NCBI GenBank assembly: GCA_040218535.1 | Contig: JAVJRG010000013.1 | Location: forward strand, 1 to 64,000 | Direction: 5' to 3' | Length of the DNA: 64,000 nucleotides | DNA from: Lacipirellulaceae bacterium | GTDB lineage: Bacteria > Planctomycetota > Planctomycetia > Pirellulales > Lacipirellulaceae | Shown: positions 3,154 to 48,451 of the stretch, piece after piece | Position numbering within the stretch: the stretch's first letter is position 1 | How the letters are laid out: every line of letters begins with the position of its first letter | Made by a program: the position numbers and the translations under genes | The notes under the pieces: generated by a model | What the model was told of the DNA's origin: nothing | The model's database searches: none | What the model saw: only the letters and a program-made list of their open reading frames with translations

Positions 3154-4152
<999 letters not shown>

Positions 4153-9367: not shown

Positions 9368-9451
9368 AAAACTCCGAGAGCTCCAACCCGAGAGCTTACG
9401 CTTCTCGGCTCAGAATTCTTACTGCCCACTGCCTTCTGCCCACTGCCAACT

Positions 9452-37731: not shown

Positions 37732-39489
37732 CTACGGCGTATTCGCTTGGTGCTTCGTAAGATCCCAGTCGATGGGGGTGCGCTGCTTCACAAGTTTCTG
37801 GACCCTTTCGATCGACTCGAACTGCTCGCGTGTCGTTTTCCCTTCTTTGGCCATATCTGCTGCCACGACACCTGCAGCAGTCCCCGTCGACCACTCAATA
37901 GGGTGCAGTCGCGTCGCGGAGTTCGCGAGAAAACTCTGCGACATCGTTTTTCCGGCAACCAGCAGGTTTTCGAACTGGTAGTGCGTCAGTGCACGGAACG
38001 GAATGTAAAACGGCAGCGTGTCGTGCGCTTCCTTCAAATACTCCGGCAGAATTTTACCGGTGAGCGGATGAATGTCAGCGGCATAGGCCCCTAATGCAAT
38101 GCGATCAGGGAATTTCTCACCGGTTACTTGGGAAGCGGGTCCAGTCAGGCTAGCAAATTGAAGGACGAAGTCGTCCAACCCGATCGAGCGACGGGTGTCG
38201 CGAATGTAAGGGAGCTTCGCGAGGCCGTGGGCGGTGCCGAGCTCCCGCCCGTTAAGTGCGATGTTCTCGGGAGAGAACTTTTCCGGTGCCTGTTTCCGAA
38301 ACCAATGATGCCAGCCGTAAGCACGCGCTTCCGCTGCCGCAAGCGTCTCCAGATTGATGCCTCCCCGCCAGTCGTCAACCGAAGCAGCCGTCTTATCCTT
38401 CGACAGGAATAAATAGCCGAACGGATAATCGTTGCCGCCTTGTTCGCGACTTGGCGAGTAACCCCAGTTTTGCAAACAAAGGTCGCCCACTGCAGGAGGC
38501 CCTTCGCCGCCGATACGTCGATACGTCCAGATGAGGTCCCAAGCGTTCGGCTTCTCCTGGTAATCGCCATAACCGAGGTGCTCAACTTCTTGCCCCGCTT
38601 CTGGCTGCGTCTGAGCCGTGTCGTGGATCTCTTGGACAAAACAATAGACGGTGGACTGACCGGCGGTGTCGAGGCAGTCTTTCTTCTGCTCTTCGATCTC
38701 TGCCCCTTGCAAATAGTCCGCACCGCTGAGTGCGAGGACTTCGCCCCACTCGGTAGCTTCAATGAACACCGGCATCTTGCCTGCACTGGCACAGAATTTC
38801 AAAACACGTTTCGTAAAACGCTGTGAATCGTCGGGCGAGTACCAGTCCGCTAGATCTTGCGACGGCAGGAGGTCGTAGCCGCGCGCAACGAGGGACGAAC
38901 GAGGGCTTCTTTGGATCGCGATCAGCGATCGAATCTTCTTTCCCTGTTCATCCAGAGTGACTGACTTGACCACCGTTTCATGAAACACCACCAGATTCTC
39001 GCCTGCTGCTTCCTGAAGCGGCATGAGTTGCTTCTCTAAATAGATTGTTGGGCGGAAGCAGAACCGGCTCACCCAGCAATCGCCACATTCGTCGAGGCCT
39101 GTCAAAGTTTGCAGAAAGTTGCCCGTGATGTTTTTGGGGTCGCGAGCGATTTGCGAGACATTCAGCAACTGCTCTCCAGTCTCTTTGTCGGTGATCTTGT
39201 GCCACGCTTCGTCAATCGCTGGCACGCCGCTGGAGGTGAGTTGTCCGCCGACCCAATCAGTAGGCTCCAGCAGTGCCGTGCGTGCTCCACTCTTCGCTGA
39301 AGACAAAGCCGCGGCAAAGGCGGCTGTTGATCCTCCGGCAATAATGACGTCGAACTCGTGCGTCTCCGTTGGCTCTGGCGTGGCTCCACCAGCAGTGTTT
39401 CCGACGATGCCGAGGAGCAACGCGGCTACGATTAGCTTTTGAAGACGTTGTACGATTATCCAGTTCGCGTTTTCTTGATTTCGATTCAT
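37732..39489 (-). CDS. FAD-dependent oxidoreductase, exported
   Basis: The 585-residue protein has a hydrophobic leader (QRLQKLIVAALLLGIVG) and then a Rossmann dinucleotide site (EFDVIIAGGSTAAFAAALSSAKSGARTALLE), typical of the PF12831 FAD-dependent family found in bacterial sugar-utilisation gene clusters. Further recognisable blocks are DWVGGQLTSSG and YIPFRALTHYQFENLLVAGK near the C-terminus, followed by SANSATRLHPIEWSTGTAAG. Substrate is unknown. The frame is open to 39603, but ATG 39489 leaves a clean 22-base gap after the symporter gene and starts just before the leader. Confidence 0.83.
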   Translation of the reverse strand: MNRNQENANWIIVQRLQKLIVAALLLGIVGNTAGGATPEPTETHEFDVIIAGGSTAAFAAALSSAKSGARTALLEPTDWVGGQLTSSGVPAIDEAWHKITDKETGEQLLNVSQIARDPKNITGNFLQTLTGLDECGDCWVSRFCFRPTIYLEKQLMPLQEAAGENLVVFHETVVKSVTLDEQGKKIRSLIAIQRSPRSSLVARGYDLLPSQDLADWYSPDDSQRFTKRVLKFCASAGKMPVFIEATEWGEVLALSGADYLQGAEIEEQKKDCLDTAGQSTVYCFVQEIHDTAQTQPEAGQEVEHLGYGDYQEKPNAWDLIWTYRRIGGEGPPAVGDLCLQNWGYSPSREQGGNDYPFGYLFLSKDKTAASVDDWRGGINLETLAAAEARAYGWHHWFRKQAPEKFSPENIALNGRELGTAHGLAKLPYIRDTRRSIGLDDFVLQFASLTGPASQVTGEKFPDRIALGAYAADIHPLTGKILPEYLKEAHDTLPFYIPFRALTHYQFENLLVAGKTMSQSFLANSATRLHPIEWSTGTAAGVVAADMAKEGKTTREQFESIERVQKLVKQRTPIDWDLTKHQANTP

Positions 39490-39511
39490 TATGTGTACAA
39501 TCGCGAGAGCG

Positions 39512-41380
39512 TTAGGTTGGTTCAACTGCTGCGTCGGCAAGCAAGACTTGCGAATCTTCCATTCGGCGAATGTGCCAGCGGAAAGCGGGTAGAAATATTC
39601 CACCGGAGACCAGGCAGGCGGCCGCTAAGATCGTTGCTATGCCATACTTTCCGACCAATATTTGCGCGATACCCAGGACACCCGCAATTAGAAAAATAGC
39701 CCCCAGGCACGCGACCGCTAGACCGCCCGTAAACAGGTAAGGAAAGTCGTGACCCTCGGTCCCCGGTTGCTCGCTCAGCACTTTCCTGCGGATGGGCCCC
39801 CACAGGCCCAGTGGGGCAGCGCGGCGGTAGAAGCGTTTCAAAGTCGCTTCACTCTCCGGTGGATAGATCAGGACAGCGCTGATCCAAATGAGCGAGGTCA
39901 GCCCAATCGAGATGATCGCTTGCAGCATGGCCATCGCATCGGCGTTGGTCGGACTGACAGCAAGCTGCTCCTTCCACCACGACCACTGCGGAAGCAACCA
40001 ACCGAGGCTGAGGTAGACCACGGGGCCACCAACCATCGCGGCGACCCACGAGGGGAAATTTACCCGCCACCACCACCACTGAGCCCAGTAAAACGCGGCA
40101 CTAGAAGCAAACATTCCGGCAATGACGGTGACAATATCGAAAAGTGAATCCGTCGCGAACACGACTCCGACGCCAAGCGCTAAAATCCCGAGCATCGCGA
40201 AGCGGCCGATCCACAAACAAGCACGACTGGAAGCATCGAGCAGCTGACTCTTGGGAAAGATTTGCCTCAGAACATCATTAACGATCGTTTGCGCTCCGTA
40301 GTTGAGGTGGCTATCAATCGTGGACATCACGCTCGCTAGTAACGCTGCAATCGCGACTCCTAACACACCGACTGGGAGATTCTCTTGCAGCATCATTCCA
40401 TAAGTCTCTTCACGGAGATCCTTATCAGCGTGATACATTTCGGGATGAGTGGCGATCACGCCCAGGGTGGGTAAGGTGAGCAATAAGAGCATGAGAAACA
40501 GAGAACCGGCTGCCCAGATCGGCACTTTCGCTGCTTCGTGGGTGCTACGAGCCGAGAAGAGCCTTTGTCCTTCGAGATCGACGCTTCCGCCTCGGCCAAT
40601 CGTGGGCACAATCAGCCAAGCGAGCACAACGATTGGGGCAAGCACTTCATGCCCAGGGACCGGGGTAACCGACAGAATCTCTCCGTGTTCTTCAGGATGC
40701 GCCGCGACCACCGCCTCGGCCAGCCCGCTTGGGCCTCCATGCTCGTAGAGTACGCTACAAAGCAAAAACAAGCTTGCTAGGACAATGATCGCCGATTGCA
40801 AGACATCTGTAATCACGACGCCCGCGAATCCAGAAATCCAAACGTAAGAAACGAGAATTGGCAACACGCAGATCAGCGTCGTGAGTTTGCTTTCAATCCC
40901 AAAGACTGGGGCGAGGATCTTGTGCATTCCCAGCAGGCCAGCACCAATCCAAGGGATCATATTGATTGACACGGCAAACAAGGCGGAGATCACACGTACC
41001 ACTTTCGCACCGCGGCCACCGAAACGGAGCGAGTAGAACTCCGGCCCCGTGGTGATTCTTAGGGCCCGCCACCGCACGGCAAACAACAGGGCGACGATCA
41101 ACCAAGCGAAAGCAAACCGTGAGAGATAAAACCACGCGACCGGCAGACCGATCACGACGGCCAAGCCGCAATAGAGCGGGGCAACATCGGCATTCATCGC
41201 CGTGACGGCGTAGGAAATTCCGTTCACCCAACCTGGCATGCGGCGTCCGGCCAGATAAAACCCCTCTTCATCGGTCGAAGTGTTCAACATCCGACTGGCG
41301 ATGATACCAATGCCAAAACTACCCGCCAGATAGATGACGATGACCGCCACATCAATGCTGTGAGTTTTGGCAAATTCCAT
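39512..41380 (-). CDS. Sodium:solute symporter (SSS) family transporter
   Basis: The 622-residue protein has about 13-14 membrane segments. The SSS signature is visible as GITLAGRRMPGW-like FYLAGRRMPGWVNGISYAVT in the first helices, VSYVWISGFAGVVITDVLQ and the MSTIDSHLNYGAQTIVNDVL block. It probably imports a sugar-like or other small organic substrate with sodium. It lies 33 bases after the Gfo/Idh gene and 22 before the FAD oxidoreductase gene on the same strand, so it supplies the uptake step for the operon. Confidence 0.9.
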   Translation of the reverse strand: MEFAKTHSIDVAVIVIYLAGSFGIGIIASRMLNTSTDEEGFYLAGRRMPGWVNGISYAVTAMNADVAPLYCGLAVVIGLPVAWFYLSRFAFAWLIVALLFAVRWRALRITTGPEFYSLRFGGRGAKVVRVISALFAVSINMIPWIGAGLLGMHKILAPVFGIESKLTTLICVLPILVSYVWISGFAGVVITDVLQSAIIVLASLFLLCSVLYEHGGPSGLAEAVVAAHPEEHGEILSVTPVPGHEVLAPIVVLAWLIVPTIGRGGSVDLEGQRLFSARSTHEAAKVPIWAAGSLFLMLLLLTLPTLGVIATHPEMYHADKDLREETYGMMLQENLPVGVLGVAIAALLASVMSTIDSHLNYGAQTIVNDVLRQIFPKSQLLDASSRACLWIGRFAMLGILALGVGVVFATDSLFDIVTVIAGMFASSAAFYWAQWWWWRVNFPSWVAAMVGGPVVYLSLGWLLPQWSWWKEQLAVSPTNADAMAMLQAIISIGLTSLIWISAVLIYPPESEATLKRFYRRAAPLGLWGPIRRKVLSEQPGTEGHDFPYLFTGGLAVACLGAIFLIAGVLGIAQILVGKYGIATILAAACLVSGGIFLPAFRWHIRRMEDSQVLLADAAVEPT

Positions 41381-41413: not shown

Positions 41414-42514
41414 TTACTCGACCGAGATGCTGGGGAGCGACTCGAAAAGGTTGGTTGGTGAATCTTTCTGAGGCGAGTCATCTTGCTGGCTGGAAGCGTA
41501 GATCGCGTCAACGATCGCCTGCACTTCCGAGGCCTCATGGCAGTTGGCACCGACAGATGTACGCGACTCAATATTCTCTTGAAAGTCAAGCAACTGCTTT
41601 AAAAAGAAGTCGTTCTCTTCAACGGGAATCACTTCGTCGTGAAGTTGCTCGCGTTCAGTGGTCTGGTGGATCTTGTCGCCGAAGAGTTCGAAGGCAATTC
41701 CGCCTTTCGTACCGCAGAAGCTGACCATGGAAGGTGGCATGAGTCCCTGAGGATAGTTACCGGCCCACGCAACGTGGAAATCAAGAGTCTTGCCTCCTGC
41801 CAGCTTCACCATCGCTTGGGCAGCGTCCTCCACGTTGCAAACACCAGAGTAGTCGGGCGGTCCGGACCACATGTCTTCATACTTGTAGTCTTCCATACGC
41901 ACCCCGAAGTGCTGGAAGGTCTGTCCCGCAACTTCTTGAACGGGTGGAAAATTGAATCCGTAGAGTGCCAGATCGAGTAGATGCACTCCCACGTCAATCA
42001 CCGCTCCACCTCCCGAACGCTCGCGGTCTGTGAACCAACGCCCTAGCCCCGGCACGTTACGGCGGAGGAACAGGAAAGCCTGAGCGAAATAGAGGTCGCC
42101 GAGAGCTCCGCTTTCGATAATCTTCTTCGCAGCCTCGGCAACGCCGGTGAAGCGGTGAACGAAACCGACTTGGAGCACTCGTTCCGCGGCCTGGGCGACG
42201 TGATCAATCTCTTCGCACTGCTCGTAAGAGAGAGCCATTGGCTTTTCCAGAAGTACGTGCTTCCCTGCTCGCAGGGCTGCGATGGCAAAGGATTGATGCA
42301 GCCAGTTGGGAATGCCGATCACGACCGCGTCGATCGAACCGTCTTGGTAAAGCGCCTCAGGCGCTAGCGCGTGCGTGGTCTTGAACTCTTCCGCGAATGC
42401 GCGACCAATCTCCTGGTTGCTGTCGACAACCATACCGATCGGTATGCCCGCCGTTTGCGCAGCCTGGGCGTGCTTTTTACCAATCGCTCCGGCGCCAATG
42501 ATCCCTAGTTTCAT
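41414..42514 (-). CDS. Gfo/Idh/MocA family oxidoreductase
   Basis: The 366-residue protein has the NAD(P)-binding GIIGAGAIGKKHAQAA at its start, HVLLEKPMALSYEQC with the conserved Lys of the EKP motif, and RSGGGAVIDVGVHLLDL with the Asp and His of the substrate half. Enzymes of this family oxidise or epimerise sugars and inositols. It is the third gene of the operon and probably acts on the product of the transporter. A weak tail of Ser/Gln/Asp residues ends the protein. Confidence 0.9.
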   Translation of the reverse strand: MKLGIIGAGAIGKKHAQAAQTAGIPIGMVVDSNQEIGRAFAEEFKTTHALAPEALYQDGSIDAVVIGIPNWLHQSFAIAALRAGKHVLLEKPMALSYEQCEEIDHVAQAAERVLQVGFVHRFTGVAEAAKKIIESGALGDLYFAQAFLFLRRNVPGLGRWFTDRERSGGGAVIDVGVHLLDLALYGFNFPPVQEVAGQTFQHFGVRMEDYKYEDMWSGPPDYSGVCNVEDAAQAMVKLAGGKTLDFHVAWAGNYPQGLMPPSMVSFCGTKGGIAFELFGDKIHQTTEREQLHDEVIPVEENDFFLKQLLDFQENIESRTSVGANCHEASEVQAIVDAIYASSQQDDSPQKDSPTNLFESLPSISVE

Positions 42515-42573: not shown

Positions 42574-43500
42574 TTAGTTTTCTCTTTGCGACGCCGTCTG
42601 CGGTGTCGTCTTCCAGTGGGGCGCGGCCAACGGCCGCGAGTTCGTGGAAACCGGAATCAACTTGTGGCTGTCGTTGGCTGAGGTTGCCAGATCGAGGAGC
42701 CGACGAATGACGAGCGTTTCTCGGCTGTCAATCAGGCTCTCCCCAGCTTCAAAAAAATCCAAGATGCTTGCCGCCGCGTCGACGAACAGGTGACCACCAT
42801 CAACCTCAAAGTGATGGCTTCCCTCTCGATCTGTCAGCGTCGCACTAAACGGGCAGTCCGTGCCGCTGAGAAAATCAATAACGGCAATCCGACCATCGTG
42901 GTAAGTCAACGAGAGTTGCAGGCCCCAGTCAGCCTTGTGTCGCATCAGTGACTGAACCTCGTGCCCAAGACAACTGACGGCCAATTCCAAGGGATGGATT
43001 CCATACTCCTCAAGGGTGCTGCCAGAGGAACAGATGTGAACACTGTAGGGTTTCTCATCTTGCCGTTTCACGAATTCCTGAATTGGTGTCGAGCGTAATG
43101 CGGAGGTGGATTGAATCGGTAGGTCGTGGGCATCAGCAAGCTCAAAAATGGCGCGAGCCGTGGCAACATCAGGAGCAAATGTCTTGTCGACGAAGGTTTG
43201 TTTGCCCAGCGGGAATGCCTGTTGGCACATCTCAAGATGTAACTCGGGGTTGGAGGGGGCGAGTACCATCAGGTAATCGACCTCACCCGCTAGCTGCTCG
43301 ATCGTATCGTAGTAAGGCAGGTCACGCTCTGCGGCCCAAGTAGCACTGGGTTCAGGCTCTAGAGCTGTCGCCCCTGCTATTTCGAAACCTCGATCTGCCA
43401 GAGGACCACGAAGAGCCGACAGATAAACTTCCGCATGGAAGTTATCGAGGCGGTAATCGTAGTAACCGATTCTCTTGTTGGATGATGGTTCAGTCGACAT
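42574..43500 (-). CDS. Gfo/Idh/MocA-like oxidoreductase, divergent N-terminus
   Basis: The 308-residue protein is shorter and more diverged than its neighbour. The Rossmann start reads RIGYYDYRLDNFHAEVYL and lacks the usual G.G..G loop, although VDYLMVLAPSNPELHLEMCQQAF and FVDKTFAPDVATARAIFE, with the family Lys, are clear. The C-terminal beta-sheet half is present. It may bind NAD(P) weakly or be a structural partner of the next oxidoreductase. It starts nine bases after the AnmK-like gene stop and is clearly in the same operon. Confidence 0.78.
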   Translation of the reverse strand: MSTEPSSNKRIGYYDYRLDNFHAEVYLSALRGPLADRGFEIAGATALEPEPSATWAAERDLPYYDTIEQLAGEVDYLMVLAPSNPELHLEMCQQAFPLGKQTFVDKTFAPDVATARAIFELADAHDLPIQSTSALRSTPIQEFVKRQDEKPYSVHICSSGSTLEEYGIHPLELAVSCLGHEVQSLMRHKADWGLQLSLTYHDGRIAVIDFLSGTDCPFSATLTDREGSHHFEVDGGHLFVDAAASILDFFEAGESLIDSRETLVIRRLLDLATSANDSHKLIPVSTNSRPLAAPHWKTTPQTASQREN

Positions 43501-43509
43501 GGAATAGCT

Positions 43510-44598
43510 CTATTGCAGCGGCAACGTGCTAAAGCCCGCGCATTCAGCGTTGCGGCAGTTGCTGGTTTCTGGAGTTGTGATCGGCAAGCGGCGCAAATGG
43601 CGTACCGCCATCCAGGCAAAACACTCAGCCGACATCGTGTGAGGGTTCAAGTCTCGTTGCGTGACGTTTTGAACCCTGTCAATGTGTTCTTTCAGGAGTT
43701 CCACGATGACGGGATGCTCACTGCCGGGGCCGGTCAGCCAAACGAGATCGACGGGCTCAGGAAGTAGCATTGCTGCCTCAATAAAAGCACGGACCGTGAT
43801 CGCGCACATGGTCGCTGCTCCGTCGGCAGCGCTGAGCCCTCCCAGGTCAATATGGTCGAACTCGTGTCGATCCGCAGCTTTGGGGAGCGGACGTTTGAAG
43901 AAGGGAGTTTGGAGAGAGGCTTCGACAAGCGCCTGATCAATCTTCCCTTCGCTGGCGATTCTTCCGTGAAGATCGTGCGGCTGCTGGGCCATCTCCTGGA
44001 CCCATTCATTGAGCAATCCGACACCAGGCCCTACGTCACCAGCAATAATCTCATTCTCGCGACTAAGCCAAGTGACACTCGCGATGGAATCGAGATTCAA
44101 CATCAGTGCCGGGCGTGGCTCTTTGGCCATCAAGGCCCAGTGGAACATGGCTGACAGCGGTGCGCCTGTCCCGCCGATGGTCATATCATGCCTACGAAAG
44201 TCGCTGACAACCGGCAAGTCGAGAGCTTCAGAGAGCTGCCAAGGGTTGCCAATTTCTAATGACAGGCTTTGGCTAGGAATATGACGAAGCAGGTGTCCCC
44301 GAAAGCCAACGAGTTGCGTGTCTGCGACCGCAGCTTGGCACTCACTTCGCAGTTTTCCGAATGCCTCGATGTGATGCTGCGTGAGTTTCTTCTCTAGTCG
44401 CAGGATTTCGGTCGTCGGCAAGTCATTCTGAGTCGCTTCCAAGATGCTCCACTGCAGCTGATCATCGTAGGGCAGCGAGATCCCACCGAGCGAGTGAACT
44501 TCGTCCTGTCCGTCGGTGTCGATCACCGCCGCTTCGACCCCATCACCGGAGGCCGAGCTGGCCAAGCCTACCGAACGATACAACGGGGAAGGTGCCAA
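43510..44598 (-). CDS. Divergent anhydro-N-acetylmuramic acid kinase-like protein
   Basis: The 362-residue protein shares the AnmK fold and overall length. In AnmK the opening GLMSGTSLDG contacts ATP; here the aligned stretch reads GLASSASGDG. The sugar-site GHDGQT is replaced by GFRGHLL, and N.GGIAN by LNLDSIAS. VSDFRRHDMTIGGTGAPL and DVGPGVGLLN retain the acidic residues of the catalytic blocks. So the enzyme may act on a different sugar, or may be a regulatory relative. It is the first gene of a six-gene operon, and starts at TTG; a TTG at 44583 is an alternative start. Confidence 0.78.
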   Translation of the reverse strand: MAPSPLYRSVGLASSASGDGVEAAVIDTDGQDEVHSLGGISLPYDDQLQWSILEATQNDLPTTEILRLEKKLTQHHIEAFGKLRSECQAAVADTQLVGFRGHLLRHIPSQSLSLEIGNPWQLSEALDLPVVSDFRRHDMTIGGTGAPLSAMFHWALMAKEPRPALMLNLDSIASVTWLSRENEIIAGDVGPGVGLLNEWVQEMAQQPHDLHGRIASEGKIDQALVEASLQTPFFKRPLPKAADRHEFDHIDLGGLSAADGAATMCAITVRAFIEAAMLLPEPVDLVWLTGPGSEHPVIVELLKEHIDRVQNVTQRDLNPHTMSAECFAWMAVRHLRRLPITTPETSNCRNAECAGFSTLPLQ

Positions 44599-44686
44599 TG
44601 GATTGTTGCCTATTTGCCAAAAATGGGGCGTGATTTCCTAGAGAAAGCGTGTTTTCAGTCTAACAGCGGAAGGGTAGAACGGCCTG

Positions 44687-44719
44687 ACATAAAGCGCATT
44701 TTTTTCCACATAAAGCGCA
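44687..44719. promoter_or_regulatory. Predicted AraC/XylR-type operator, 12-bp direct repeat
   Basis: ACATAAAGCGCA occurs twice, at 44687-44698 and 44708-44719, in the same orientation with a 21-bp period, that is two helical turns. The copies are identical and separated by an A/T-rich nine bases. They lie between the divergent regulator gene (start 44774) and operon (start 44598). Direct repeats of this spacing are typical of AraC/XylR-family operators, so this is the probable binding site of the adjacent regulator. Confidence 0.72.
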
Positions 44720-44773
44720 GGGGGCAGCAACTTTGGTTTACAGTGGAAGTATCCCACGAGCCCCAAACTTGCC

Positions 44774-45946
44774 ATGACAGCACCTGCCAAACACAAGCCG
44801 CTTGAGATTGCTGTCCTTGTAGAAACGGACAACAGTTGGGGGCGGAGTGTTGTGCAGGGGATTGCTGATTTCGCCAGCAAGTTTGGACCCTGGAACCTTC
44901 TGATCGATCCCCGCGATTACAGCCAGCGGTGGTCATTGCCTGACCGCTGGCGTGGCGATGGCATCATTGCGCGGATCAGTACGCCGCCACAACTGGAGGA
45001 AATCCTCAACACAAAGTTGCCGAGTGTGAATGTTGATGATGTTTATGCCAACCGTAATCGAGTGGGCAATGTGCTTACTAATCAAGCAGAAAAGGCGCGC
45101 CTGGCGATTGATCACTTTCGGGAGCGCGGCATGACGAAGTTTGCCTATTACGCTCCGCCAAGCAACGAGTACTCGAGATGTTCGGAAGTGGAATTCGTAA
45201 AAGCGCTCGCCGAAATAGGAACGGAATGTCACGTTTACAAGCCGGGCTATCGGGTGAGCCGACGAATCGGTCGGGACGAGCAACATCGGCGTATCCTGCG
45301 TTGGCTGAACCAGCTGCCCCGTCCGGTGGCGATTCTGGCAGTCGATGCTCGACGCGGGCGCGAACTGACCGAGGTCTGCAGCATGGAAGGAATTGCCGTA
45401 CCCGATGAGGTGGCAATCCTTGCGGGAGATACCGACGACCTGCTTTGCGAGTTGAGTAGTCCGCCCCTTTCCAGCATTGTCGTAGCCAGCCAAAAACTGG
45501 GCTATGAGGCTGCCGCCATGCTCCATCGCATGATCCACGAGGGCGAAACACCAAGCGAACCGGAATTGGTTCCCCCGATCGGAGTCGTGAGCAAGCAGTC
45601 GACCGATGCACTGGCGATCAACGACCCGATGGTCGTCAAGGCGATGCGATTCATCCAGACGCACGCCTTTGCGGGAATCATCGTTGAAGACGTGCTGCGT
45701 GAAGTCCCCGTCTCGCGTCGATATCTTGAGCAGCAGTTCAAAAGGTATTTTGGGCGACTCCCGGCCGAAGAAATACGCCATCTACGACTGGAACGCGGCA
45801 AGGAACTCCTGGCTCAGTCAGAGATTTCCGTCGAGTCCGTCGCGACCGCGTGTGGCTATGCGGGTTCGACCCAATTCGGAGTCGCTTTCCGCAAGAAGTA
45901 CGGCCAAACCCCGCTGGCCTTTCGCAAAGGGCTGCATAGCAGTTAG
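44774..45946 (+). CDS. XylR-type AraC family transcriptional regulator
   Basis: The 390-residue protein has an N-terminal LacI/periplasmic-binding-like sensor domain (LEIAVLVETDNSWGRSVVQG near the start, through AILAGDTDDLLCELSSPPLSSI) and a C-terminal AraC HTH domain (about 290-390) with VPVSRRYLEQQFKRYFGR and ISVESVATACGYAGSTQFGV. This is the domain order of XylR-type regulators, which bind a sugar and activate catabolic operons. It diverges from the six-gene operon, with a 12-bp direct repeat between them. It is likely the regulator of that operon and of itself. Confidence 0.9.
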   Translation: MTAPAKHKPLEIAVLVETDNSWGRSVVQGIADFASKFGPWNLLIDPRDYSQRWSLPDRWRGDGIIARISTPPQLEEILNTKLPSVNVDDVYANRNRVGNVLTNQAEKARLAIDHFRERGMTKFAYYAPPSNEYSRCSEVEFVKALAEIGTECHVYKPGYRVSRRIGRDEQHRRILRWLNQLPRPVAILAVDARRGRELTEVCSMEGIAVPDEVAILAGDTDDLLCELSSPPLSSIVVASQKLGYEAAAMLHRMIHEGETPSEPELVPPIGVVSKQSTDALAINDPMVVKAMRFIQTHAFAGIIVEDVLREVPVSRRYLEQQFKRYFGRLPAEEIRHLRLERGKELLAQSEISVESVATACGYAGSTQFGVAFRKKYGQTPLAFRKGLHSS

Positions 45947-46118
45947 ATCCGGCTCGTGCGCTTTTGATGGAAAAATATACGCACAATCGCTTGGTGTTCA
46001 CAGGTGGGAATATTAGGATGCAACTGGCTTCAAACCTAAAGCCTACCTGCATAGCGAGTAAGAACTAGGTAATTTGTTCTCTGTCTTGTCACTAGATTTC
46101 TATTTGGAGGGATGACTA

Positions 46119-47021
46119 ATGAGACTTGAAAAGCTTTTCTACGGGCTAGCGTGCGCCCTGCTGCTTGGCAGTTGCGCTGCAAAGTCCCAGGCGGAACTGG
46201 TCGCGTATGATCCGTTTCTCAGCGGCAACAACCGAGGGGCAGGGGAGTACACCGCTGGCAACGACATGCGCACCATGGGCGCCGCAGCACTCGGTTGGGT
46301 TGGAACGTCAGGTCTTGACGGGTTTGGCATCCCTCACTCAGGCAGTACAGGCAACTTCCAAGCGAACGCGCTCGGAGAAGATTCTGCTGCCGTCGCTTAC
46401 GAGCAAGGAGGGCGCGTCCAATGGCTCGGTGTCCCAAATTTCCCATTCGATCGCAACATCACACGTCAGCTCAATCCAACGCCAAGCTCAAGCGAATGGT
46501 GGATGAGCATCATGGTCAACCGCTTGAATTGGGGAAATGATCCGGCAAACGATACCTACGTCGTTGGTGGATTCACCGATGCTGGCGGCAATGGCCTGCA
46601 AGTTGGTTATGACAACTCGGCTGGCCAAGATGCTAACCCTGACTTGGTACTTCGCTCGAACGGTATCAACACCGTGATTGCTGCCGATACGGCATCCAGT
46701 GACAATCAATACGTTTTGGTGAAGCTAGAGATTGACCCCGTCGGCAACGATACAATCTCTGTGTGGGCCGACCCCAGTAGCGTTGATCCTCTTGGCACCG
46801 CTGATGTAATCATTACCGACCAAGACTTGACGAGTTCTCTTGCGCCATTCACACAGTCAAAGTATGAGTCGCCCGGTCAGTCGGGCGCGGCTTTCTTTGA
46901 TGAGATCCGACTGTCGACCGATTTCGATTCGATTATTCAAATCCCTGAGCCCGCTTCACTGGCTTTACTAGGGGTTGCCTTTGGACTGGTAGGAGTTTCT
47001 CGCAAACGTCGAGTTTCCTAA
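46119..47021 (+). CDS. PEP-CTERM surface protein
   Basis: The 300-residue protein has a signal peptide (FYGLACALLLGSCAAKSQA), a beta-rich Gly/Asn/Ser-rich body with a concanavalin-like look, and a PEP-CTERM tail IPEPASLALLGVAFGLVGVSRKRR made of PEP motif, helix and basic cluster. PEP-CTERM proteins are cut by exosortase at the envelope. GGAGGG precedes the ATG at a suitable distance, and a strong intrinsic terminator follows. No enzymatic function is evident. Confidence 0.85.
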   Translation: MRLEKLFYGLACALLLGSCAAKSQAELVAYDPFLSGNNRGAGEYTAGNDMRTMGAAALGWVGTSGLDGFGIPHSGSTGNFQANALGEDSAAVAYEQGGRVQWLGVPNFPFDRNITRQLNPTPSSSEWWMSIMVNRLNWGNDPANDTYVVGGFTDAGGNGLQVGYDNSAGQDANPDLVLRSNGINTVIAADTASSDNQYVLVKLEIDPVGNDTISVWADPSSVDPLGTADVIITDQDLTSSLAPFTQSKYESPGQSGAAFFDEIRLSTDFDSIIQIPEPASLALLGVAFGLVGVSRKRRVS

Positions 47022-47037
47022 GGCCATACTGAAACGG

Positions 47038-47076
47038 GCCGCAGCTATCGAAGCCTCGATAGCTGCGGCATTTTTT
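47038..47076 (+). terminator. Intrinsic terminator after PEP-CTERM gene
   Basis: A 14-pair GC-rich stem (GCCGCAGCTATCGA with its perfect complement) closes a four-base loop and is followed by A and six T. It begins 16 bases after the stop codon of the preceding gene. This is a textbook rho-independent terminator. Confidence 0.92.
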
Positions 47077-47134
47077 AAACATGTCATCAGCACATTCGTA
47101 TTCGATCCGTTCTGGGTCTTCGGGGGAGAAGGCA

Positions 47135-48451
47135 ATGAATAAACTTATCCGGCCACTCGTCTTGTCGAGCTTGTTTTTACTCGGTTCGACCCCAACTGCA
47201 TTTGCCGTGGATTTTACGGAGATTGCACGCTTCGACATTAGTGCGACATCAACCGATTTAGAGAATCCTCCGCCCGACGCGGATGACGTCGGAGTGAACA
47301 CGGTGGCGATGGCTTGGAACGGAACTAGTCTTTATTTGGCGGGGTATAACAATAGCGCCTCGTTCGGTGAGACTAGCATCATCGAAGTCACCAATCCAAC
47401 CGCGACCGGATTGGTCACTCCTACATACAGTGCAAAATTCTCGACCGATACCTTCACGCCAGGGGGGCGGGGGTTTACCGGCTTGGCATTGAGCCCCGAT
47501 GGCTCGCAATTGGCGGCTTCGTTCGACAATGGACTTGCCAACACTCCTTTGGGAATTCAGGTTTTCGACACGACCAACAACACACAAAGCTGGTCAAAGG
47601 CTGTACGCGGTGGTAGCGGCGTCGATTTCGATCCCGGCTTTCCCGGTGGCAACCCCGCCGCCGGTTCTGGCGTTGCTTACATCGAATCCTTCGGAAGCGG
47701 ACGACGCGCACTGCAAGATGCAGCAACAGGGGCAGACATCTGGACGCCATCAGACGGGATGATTTGGGTACCAAATGCCGGAGTCTCGAACAACTTTGCC
47801 CGTGACATCGCCTTCGATCCTGACACGGGCGACATGTTCATTAGGTCTCGCAACGACGTCTTCTTTGCCGAACGCAACGGCGACAACTCGACGAATCAAG
47901 GCAACAACTCTTTACTTCTTGATCTCACTGATGGGCCCTTTGTGAACTATCAGCACATCGCGTTCCTCGATACCGACAACGATGGCGACCTCCTGATTCT
48001 CAACGACCGCAGCGTCGGAGGCGGCATGCAGGCTTTTTCCGACGTAACGAAAGTCATCGATACTGCAGGCACCGAGCAGACGGCCACTTTCACCTTTCTC
48101 CCGAACGCCGACAGTTCGCCGTTTTTGCCTGAAGACGGTGCGGGGTGGTACGACTACGACTTTGATTCCGTCTCGCAAACTTTGGCATTGCTGGACATCT
48201 CGAATCGCAATGTTCACATTTTCTCACTCGGGGAAGCAGTTGCCGACGCCGATGTTGATGACGACGGCGATGTCGACGGAGCGGACTTCTTAGCGATCCA
48301 ACGCACGAATGCGTCACTGATACCGCAATGGCAATCTGACTACGGAACCGTACCGGTAGTCGCCGCTGCTGCAGGAGTGCCCGAGCCTTCGACCTTCGGG
48401 CTCGTGATTTGTGGCCTCCTGAGTTGCTTCCCGGCAAGAAGAACCCGCTGA
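47135..48451 (+). CDS. PEP-CTERM protein with beta-propeller-like body
   Basis: The 438-residue protein has a signal peptide (IRPLVLSSLFLLGSTPTAFA), a repetitive strand-rich region of propeller type (GFTGLALSPDGSQLAASF) and one EF-hand/dockerin-like motif (ADADVDDDGDVDGADFLAI) before the PEP-CTERM tail VPEPSTFGLVICGLLSCF. The start ATG 47135 is preferred over upstream codons because GGGGGAGAAGG precedes it and the signal peptide begins there. Predicted to be exported and sorted by exosortase; no function is known. Confidence 0.83.
   Translation: MNKLIRPLVLSSLFLLGSTPTAFAVDFTEIARFDISATSTDLENPPPDADDVGVNTVAMAWNGTSLYLAGYNNSASFGETSIIEVTNPTATGLVTPTYSAKFSTDTFTPGGRGFTGLALSPDGSQLAASFDNGLANTPLGIQVFDTTNNTQSWSKAVRGGSGVDFDPGFPGGNPAAGSGVAYIESFGSGRRALQDAATGADIWTPSDGMIWVPNAGVSNNFARDIAFDPDTGDMFIRSRNDVFFAERNGDNSTNQGNNSLLLDLTDGPFVNYQHIAFLDTDNDGDLLILNDRSVGGGMQAFSDVTKVIDTAGTEQTATFTFLPNADSSPFLPEDGAGWYDYDFDSVSQTLALLDISNRNVHIFSLGEAVADADVDDDGDVDGADFLAIQRTNASLIPQWQSDYGTVPVVAAAAGVPEPSTFGLVICGLLSCFPARRTR

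Follow-up and report, generated by a model that had tools for sequence, protein, structure and literature searches.

A direct repeat at positions 44687-44719 of the window (the whole 64,000-nucleotide stretch analysed) is very probably an activator operator of the I1-I2 type, read by the adjacent XylR-type regulator and serving mainly the divergent anmK operon. The sequence-only reading had described two identical 12-bp copies in the same orientation with a 21-bp period, and both are where it placed them: ACATAAAGCGCA occurs on the + strand at 44687-44698 and again at 44708-44719. We infer binding, activation, autoregulation, and an anhydro-sugar effector from sequence, conservation, spacing, and the distance to a predicted -10 hexamer.

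In the mechanism that we propose, each subunit of a regulator dimer would read one 17-bp half-site, composed of box A (TGCGC), 6 bp, and box B (TGGAAA or a weaker form of it). A 17-bp half-site and a 4-bp gap give the 21-bp period, which would place both subunits on the same face of the DNA. The proximal half-site would end close to the -35 region from which anmK is transcribed on the - strand, and the dimer, once it has bound its ligand, would bring in RNA polymerase at that point, as AraC does at I1-I2. Activation would turn on anmK, two Gfo/Idh genes, an SSS symporter gene, and an FAD oxidoreductase gene. The same bound site may hinder the regulator's own promoter, and the gene at 46119 would be activated from another site, located 3′ of the regulator.

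The regulator and the divergent operon

The regulator gene (44774..45946, + strand) encodes a protein with PBP1_XylR, Peripla_BP_3, and AraC HTH_18 domains. Its DNA-binding part belongs to the AraC/XylS family by its scores with HTH_18 (70.2 bits; cut-off, 33.6) and HTH_AraC (46.2 bits; cut-off, 26.6), and its sensor is of the XylR type by its scores with PBP1_XylR (33.3 bits; cut-off, 27) and Peripla_BP_3 (103.7 bits; cut-off, 26.5). E. coli XylR (4fe4) was matched across residues 11 to 384, nearly its full length, with an E value of 1.2e-53.

The divergent operon on the - strand begins with an AnmK-family kinase gene (43510..44598; putative TTG start; Pfam AnmK E value, 2.7e-57). The protein falls short of the thresholds set for NCBI's AnmK models (best NCBIfam score, 285.9 bits; cut-off, 352), so the substrate of the kinase is not certain. 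AnmK is followed by genes for two Gfo/Idh/MocA-type oxidoreductases (42574..43500 and 41414..42514), a sodium:solute symporter of the SSS family (39512..41380), and an FAD-dependent oxidoreductase (37732..39603). The neighbouring genes, AnmK among them, suggest that the effector is a sugar other than xylose.

We compared this locus with those of close relatives of the regulator (group A; E ≤ 1e-155, 65 to 74% identity), nine loci in all including this one, drawn from 8 of 43 genomes of the family, some of which are incomplete. AnmK is divergent from the regulator and adjoins it in all nine. Within the roughly 18 kb covered at each locus, five of the eight others keep the gene order AnmK, Gfo, Gfo, SSS, FAD. 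Of the remaining three, L065 shows AnmK alone, and in L069 and L071 the symporter gene lies across the regulator from AnmK. In genome G034 (L065, 602-3655), an A-type regulator lies a few kilobases from a second AnmK that is closer to the B type described below; a MurQ-like gene and one for a BadF-type kinase are in the same segment, and an exact copy of the operator lies at 3630.

Conservation of the site and the paralogous regulator

The core TGCGC-N16-TGCGC is present at the identical place and in the identical direction in all nine orthologous anmK/regulator spacers, and it is exact in seven. The distal TGCGC is found in all nine, and the proximal TGCGC in seven; two genomes of one genus have TCGC instead. 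Conservation in orthologous spacers had been set beforehand as a check, and it held, with a degenerate proximal box in two cases. The proposal that the repeat is an operator of the adjacent regulator thereby gained support, given also that the neighbour is an AraC-type protein with XylR architecture. The perfect 12-bp repeat is exact in this genome and is more than relatives keep: they have GCGCA-N16-GCGCA and a central TTTC (a TGGAAA-like box), not the 12-mer. When the nine spacers were aligned, the invariant columns were almost solely those of the core, of the TTTC at its centre, and of the hexamer AGT.TA.

The 21-bp period also stands out. Eight orthologous loci hold 13 GCGCA pairs at period 21, whereas the other periods from 8 to 60 average 0.77 pairs and reach at most 5. 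Eleven loci of a second regulator group (group B), namely two halves of an island in this genome and nine loci of other genomes, hold 37 such pairs, compared with a mean of 1.13 and a maximum of 4 at other periods. In these counts, as in the outward-offset counts below, sites matching in both directions are counted twice, and the counts are not independent because the genomes are related and their sites have a common origin. Since TGCGCA is itself a palindrome, two group-B sites can be read either way; the operator copies at L072 8650 and L080 13493 match in both directions, one base apart. The search for related loci in contigs also returned four distant AraC-domain matches, in clostridial genomes by their titles, which we left unused.

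The group-B regulators are 53 to 59% identical to the one studied here, and AnmK adjoins nine of ten. This genome has one of them, a 55% identical paralogue on contig C12 near 1,214 kb, beside another AnmK. Of the 19 distinct exact sites in this genome, 10 lie in the surrounding segment (C12, 1,183-1,219 kb), and 6 of these 10 have the hexamer TANNNT at 35 to 37 bp. Across the island as delimited (1180001-1220000; L072 and L073), 28 open frames were listed and 23 scanned with Pfam, the regulator and four others lying outside the scan. Its products include two amidases, a beta-lactamase/S11 peptidase, an LD-carboxypeptidase, a gamma-glutamyltranspeptidase, a DAP epimerase, and a SpoIID protein, together with a SIS protein, which we take to be of the MurQ type, a BadF-type kinase, AnmK, transporters, DUF1559, and other proteins. 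Judged by gene names, the island appears to be rich in genes of peptidoglycan catabolism. Relatives of some of these genes adjoin the paralogue in other genomes. By position, several island sites lie ahead of genes for DUF1559 or PEP-CTERM proteins, not ahead of enzyme genes. Among the group-B anmK spacers, five of nine have a site with at least 8 of 10 core letters and a -10 hexamer, and those of this genome, G001, and G049 are without such a site.

Could the repeat belong to a different regulator, for example the group-B paralogue, or be common to both? Group-B neighbourhoods share the TGCGC-N16-TGCGC core and the -10 distance. An alignment of 20 regulators (9 of group A, 10 of group B, and 1 more distant) showed that the first recognition helix, SRRxLE, which presumably reads box A, is also kept in both groups. 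However, box B is TGGAAA-like in group A and GAGAAA-like in group B among the selected sites, and the second helix reads YAGxTQFG in group A and mostly FANxTRFG in group B (FSN in two). Moreover, an A-type regulator adjoins the site in nine of nine spacers. We consider this assignment unlikely.

A broader picture, which we offer tentatively and as somewhat less than an even bet, is that both of these XylR-type paralogues, encoded next to an AnmK of their own, have shifted from sensing pentoses to sensing 1,6-anhydro sugars from peptidoglycan (anhydro-MurNAc or a relative). They would share box A TGCGC and be told apart by box B and the second helix, and one of them would run a dispersed peptidoglycan-catabolism regulon over some 35 kb of this genome.

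Direction, promoter distance, and chance

Read on the - strand, toward anmK, the distal, I1-like half-site includes the copy at 44708..44719, with box A TGCGC at 44719-44715 and box B TGGAAA at 44703..44708, the latter being the consensus derived from 12 selected sites of group A, in a few of which TCGAAA, CTGAAA, or similar letters stand instead. The proximal, I2-like half-site includes the copy at 44687..44698, with box A TGCGC at 44698-44694, and adjoins the expected -35 region of the anmK promoter. The predicted -10 hexamer of the anmK operon, TAGACT (44657..44662, - strand), lies 35 bp from the proximal box. A LacI/GalR-type operator would be an inverted repeat; all nine group-A spacers show a direct repeat. 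The site has two sequence features of an AraC I1-I2 operator: two direct half-sites with a 21-bp period and a fixed distance from the proximal half-site to the -10 hexamer.

The evidence for that fixed distance comes from the loose -10 model TANNNT. Pointing outward, away from the regulator, TANNNT is found 35 bp from the proximal box in eight of nine orthologous spacers and at 36 bp in the ninth. In the 20 loci first examined, 33 of 52 sites have it at 35 or 36 bp, counted from the G in the proximal box (11 of 15 group-A sites and 22 of 37 group-B sites); at 64 other offsets the same 52 sites gave a mean of 0.56 and a maximum of 4. Sites within 60 bases of the upstream end or 120 bases of the downstream end of a locus were dropped from this count. 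Among 18 held-out loci that do not overlap the first 20, five of eight exact sites have TANNNT, all at 36 bp, compared with a mean of 0.05 and a maximum of 1 at other offsets; just 3 of 23 held-out sites with one mismatch have it at the expected distance. At the seven distinct exact sites of this genome that lie outside both regulator neighbourhoods, TANNNT was found at 30 to 41 bp in none. The sequence logos (12 group-A and 23 group-B sites) depict selected sites, because sites lacking TANNNT at 35 to 37 bp and repeated identical sites were left out; the second operator of the window was added by hand. The near-constant distance to a -10-like hexamer, together with the direction away from the regulator, points to the anmK operon as the main target.

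The site might instead act mainly by repressing the regulator's own promoter, without activating anmK. TANNNT is also found inward, 13 to 15 bp from the site in seven of nine spacers, where the site would cover the regulator's -35 region and spacer. In this locus and in G034b the distance is 24 bp; the regulator's weak candidate -10 hexamer here is TACAGT (44739..44744, + strand). Compared with the seven others, these two spacers place the candidate farther from the site by roughly one turn of the helix. The inward distance varies (13, 14, or 15 bp, and 24 bp in two spacers), whereas the outward distance is 35 bp in all spacers except one, and the outward hexamer recurs in most of the 52 sites. 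Repression as the main function is therefore improbable, slightly more so than assignment to another regulator. Because an inward TANNNT is near the site, a bound protein could nevertheless hinder the regulator's promoter, and, on weak evidence, the activator operator that we favour perhaps also represses the regulator.

A second predicted operator, TGCGCTTTTGATGGAAAAATATACGC (45957..45982, + strand), has 9 of 10 core letters, with TACGC as its proximal box. It faces a gene for a PEP-CTERM protein (46119..47021, + strand; Pfam PEP-CTERM E value, 4.7e-05), and a predicted -10 hexamer, TAGGAT (46014..46019, + strand), lies 35 bp from its proximal box. By position, the 46119 gene is probably its first target. 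Exact sites lie close 3′ of the regulator in three of the eight other loci (L067, L068, and L070), with TAGGATGCA at 36 bp, and L066 has an exact site about 1.5 kb downstream with TAGCAT at 36 bp; an exact site close behind the regulator was not found in L064, L065, L069, or L071. An exact GCGCA pair at 46152-46177 was rejected as a chance match: it lies inside the 46119 coding sequence and has TANNNT at 32 bp and none at 35 to 37 bp. Further + strand frames 3′ of the regulator include those for a DUF1559 protein with a prepilin-like N terminus and for a GHL10 protein. Such features are reminiscent of Planctomycetota.

As for the repeat as such, a perfect direct repeat of at least 12 bp with a period of 12 to 50 was found in 1 of 5,000 dinucleotide shuffles of the 175-bp spacer (44599-44773). 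The whole window has three such repeats, compared with a mean of 0.1 in 20 shuffled windows; the remaining two are at 9422 (period 14) and 25843 (period 32). The exact pair of ACATAAAGCGCA with a gap of 6 to 12 bp occurs a single time in the 5.36-Mb genome. The lone 12-mer is unremarkable, with 6 places at up to two mismatches in the window against 3.99 expected. Genome-wide, the bare pattern is mildly enriched, with 21 matches compared with 12 for a backward control; the 21 represent 19 distinct exact sites, two of which matched on both strands. Since this enrichment is mild, the claim rests on local context. That the 12-bp repeat is a functionless product of chance or recent duplication, as its single occurrence and the lack of letter-for-letter conservation of the 12-mer in orthologues might suggest, is hardly credible, given the shuffling result and the conservation of core, spacing, direction, and -10 distance. 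An RNA element was also considered and dropped because a scan of 44000-47200 gave no Rfam match at the gathering threshold.

Comparison with known systems

The domain families of the regulator are identical to those of E. coli XylR (PDB 4fe4 and 4fe7). E. coli XylR controls xylose genes, whereas the neighbours here are anmK, symporter, and oxidoreductase genes. We did not locate XylR sites in the E. coli xylA-xylF spacer from sequence alone. A passage of PMC8647362 on XylR concerns its dimerisation only. By their titles and abstract openings, none of the literature matches listed deals with use of a XylR-type operator on AnmK-linked genes. The kind of operator is already known, and its use on AnmK-linked genes seems to be new. 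For one group of regulators in this family of bacteria, the site would provide a testable operator code, in which TGCGC-N6-TGGAAA occurs twice at a 21-bp period and the -10 hexamer follows at 35 bp.

Kinases of the AnmK family act on an anhydro sugar found in bacterial cell walls, and the associations described above would link AnmK with XylR-type regulators and, in the case of the paralogue, extend the link to peptidoglycan catabolism. MurR, an RpiR-type repressor, controls muramic-acid genes in MurNAc catabolism. In contrast to MurR, the regulator here is a predicted AraC-type activator.

The closest parallel in layout is AraC, whose half-site is 17 bp long with a 4-bp gap; in the site here, box A TGCGC occupies positions 0 to 4 and box B TGGAAA positions 11 to 16. 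The sensor domain of AraC is a cupin, whereas that of the regulator here is LacI-like, and box A is TGCGC here but TAGC in AraC sites. In araBAD, the letters of I1, I2, and the -10 hexamer were assigned by their established positions. Like the site here, the E. coli araBAD I1-I2 operator has a period of 21, and its proximal-box G is 35 bp from the hexamer, TACTGT (NC_000913). As described in PMC4486848, an arabinose-bound AraC dimer occupies the adjacent I1 and I2 half-sites, and transcription then starts. The geometry of AraC at I1-I2 thus appears to be kept to within a base pair at promoters that have a different box A.
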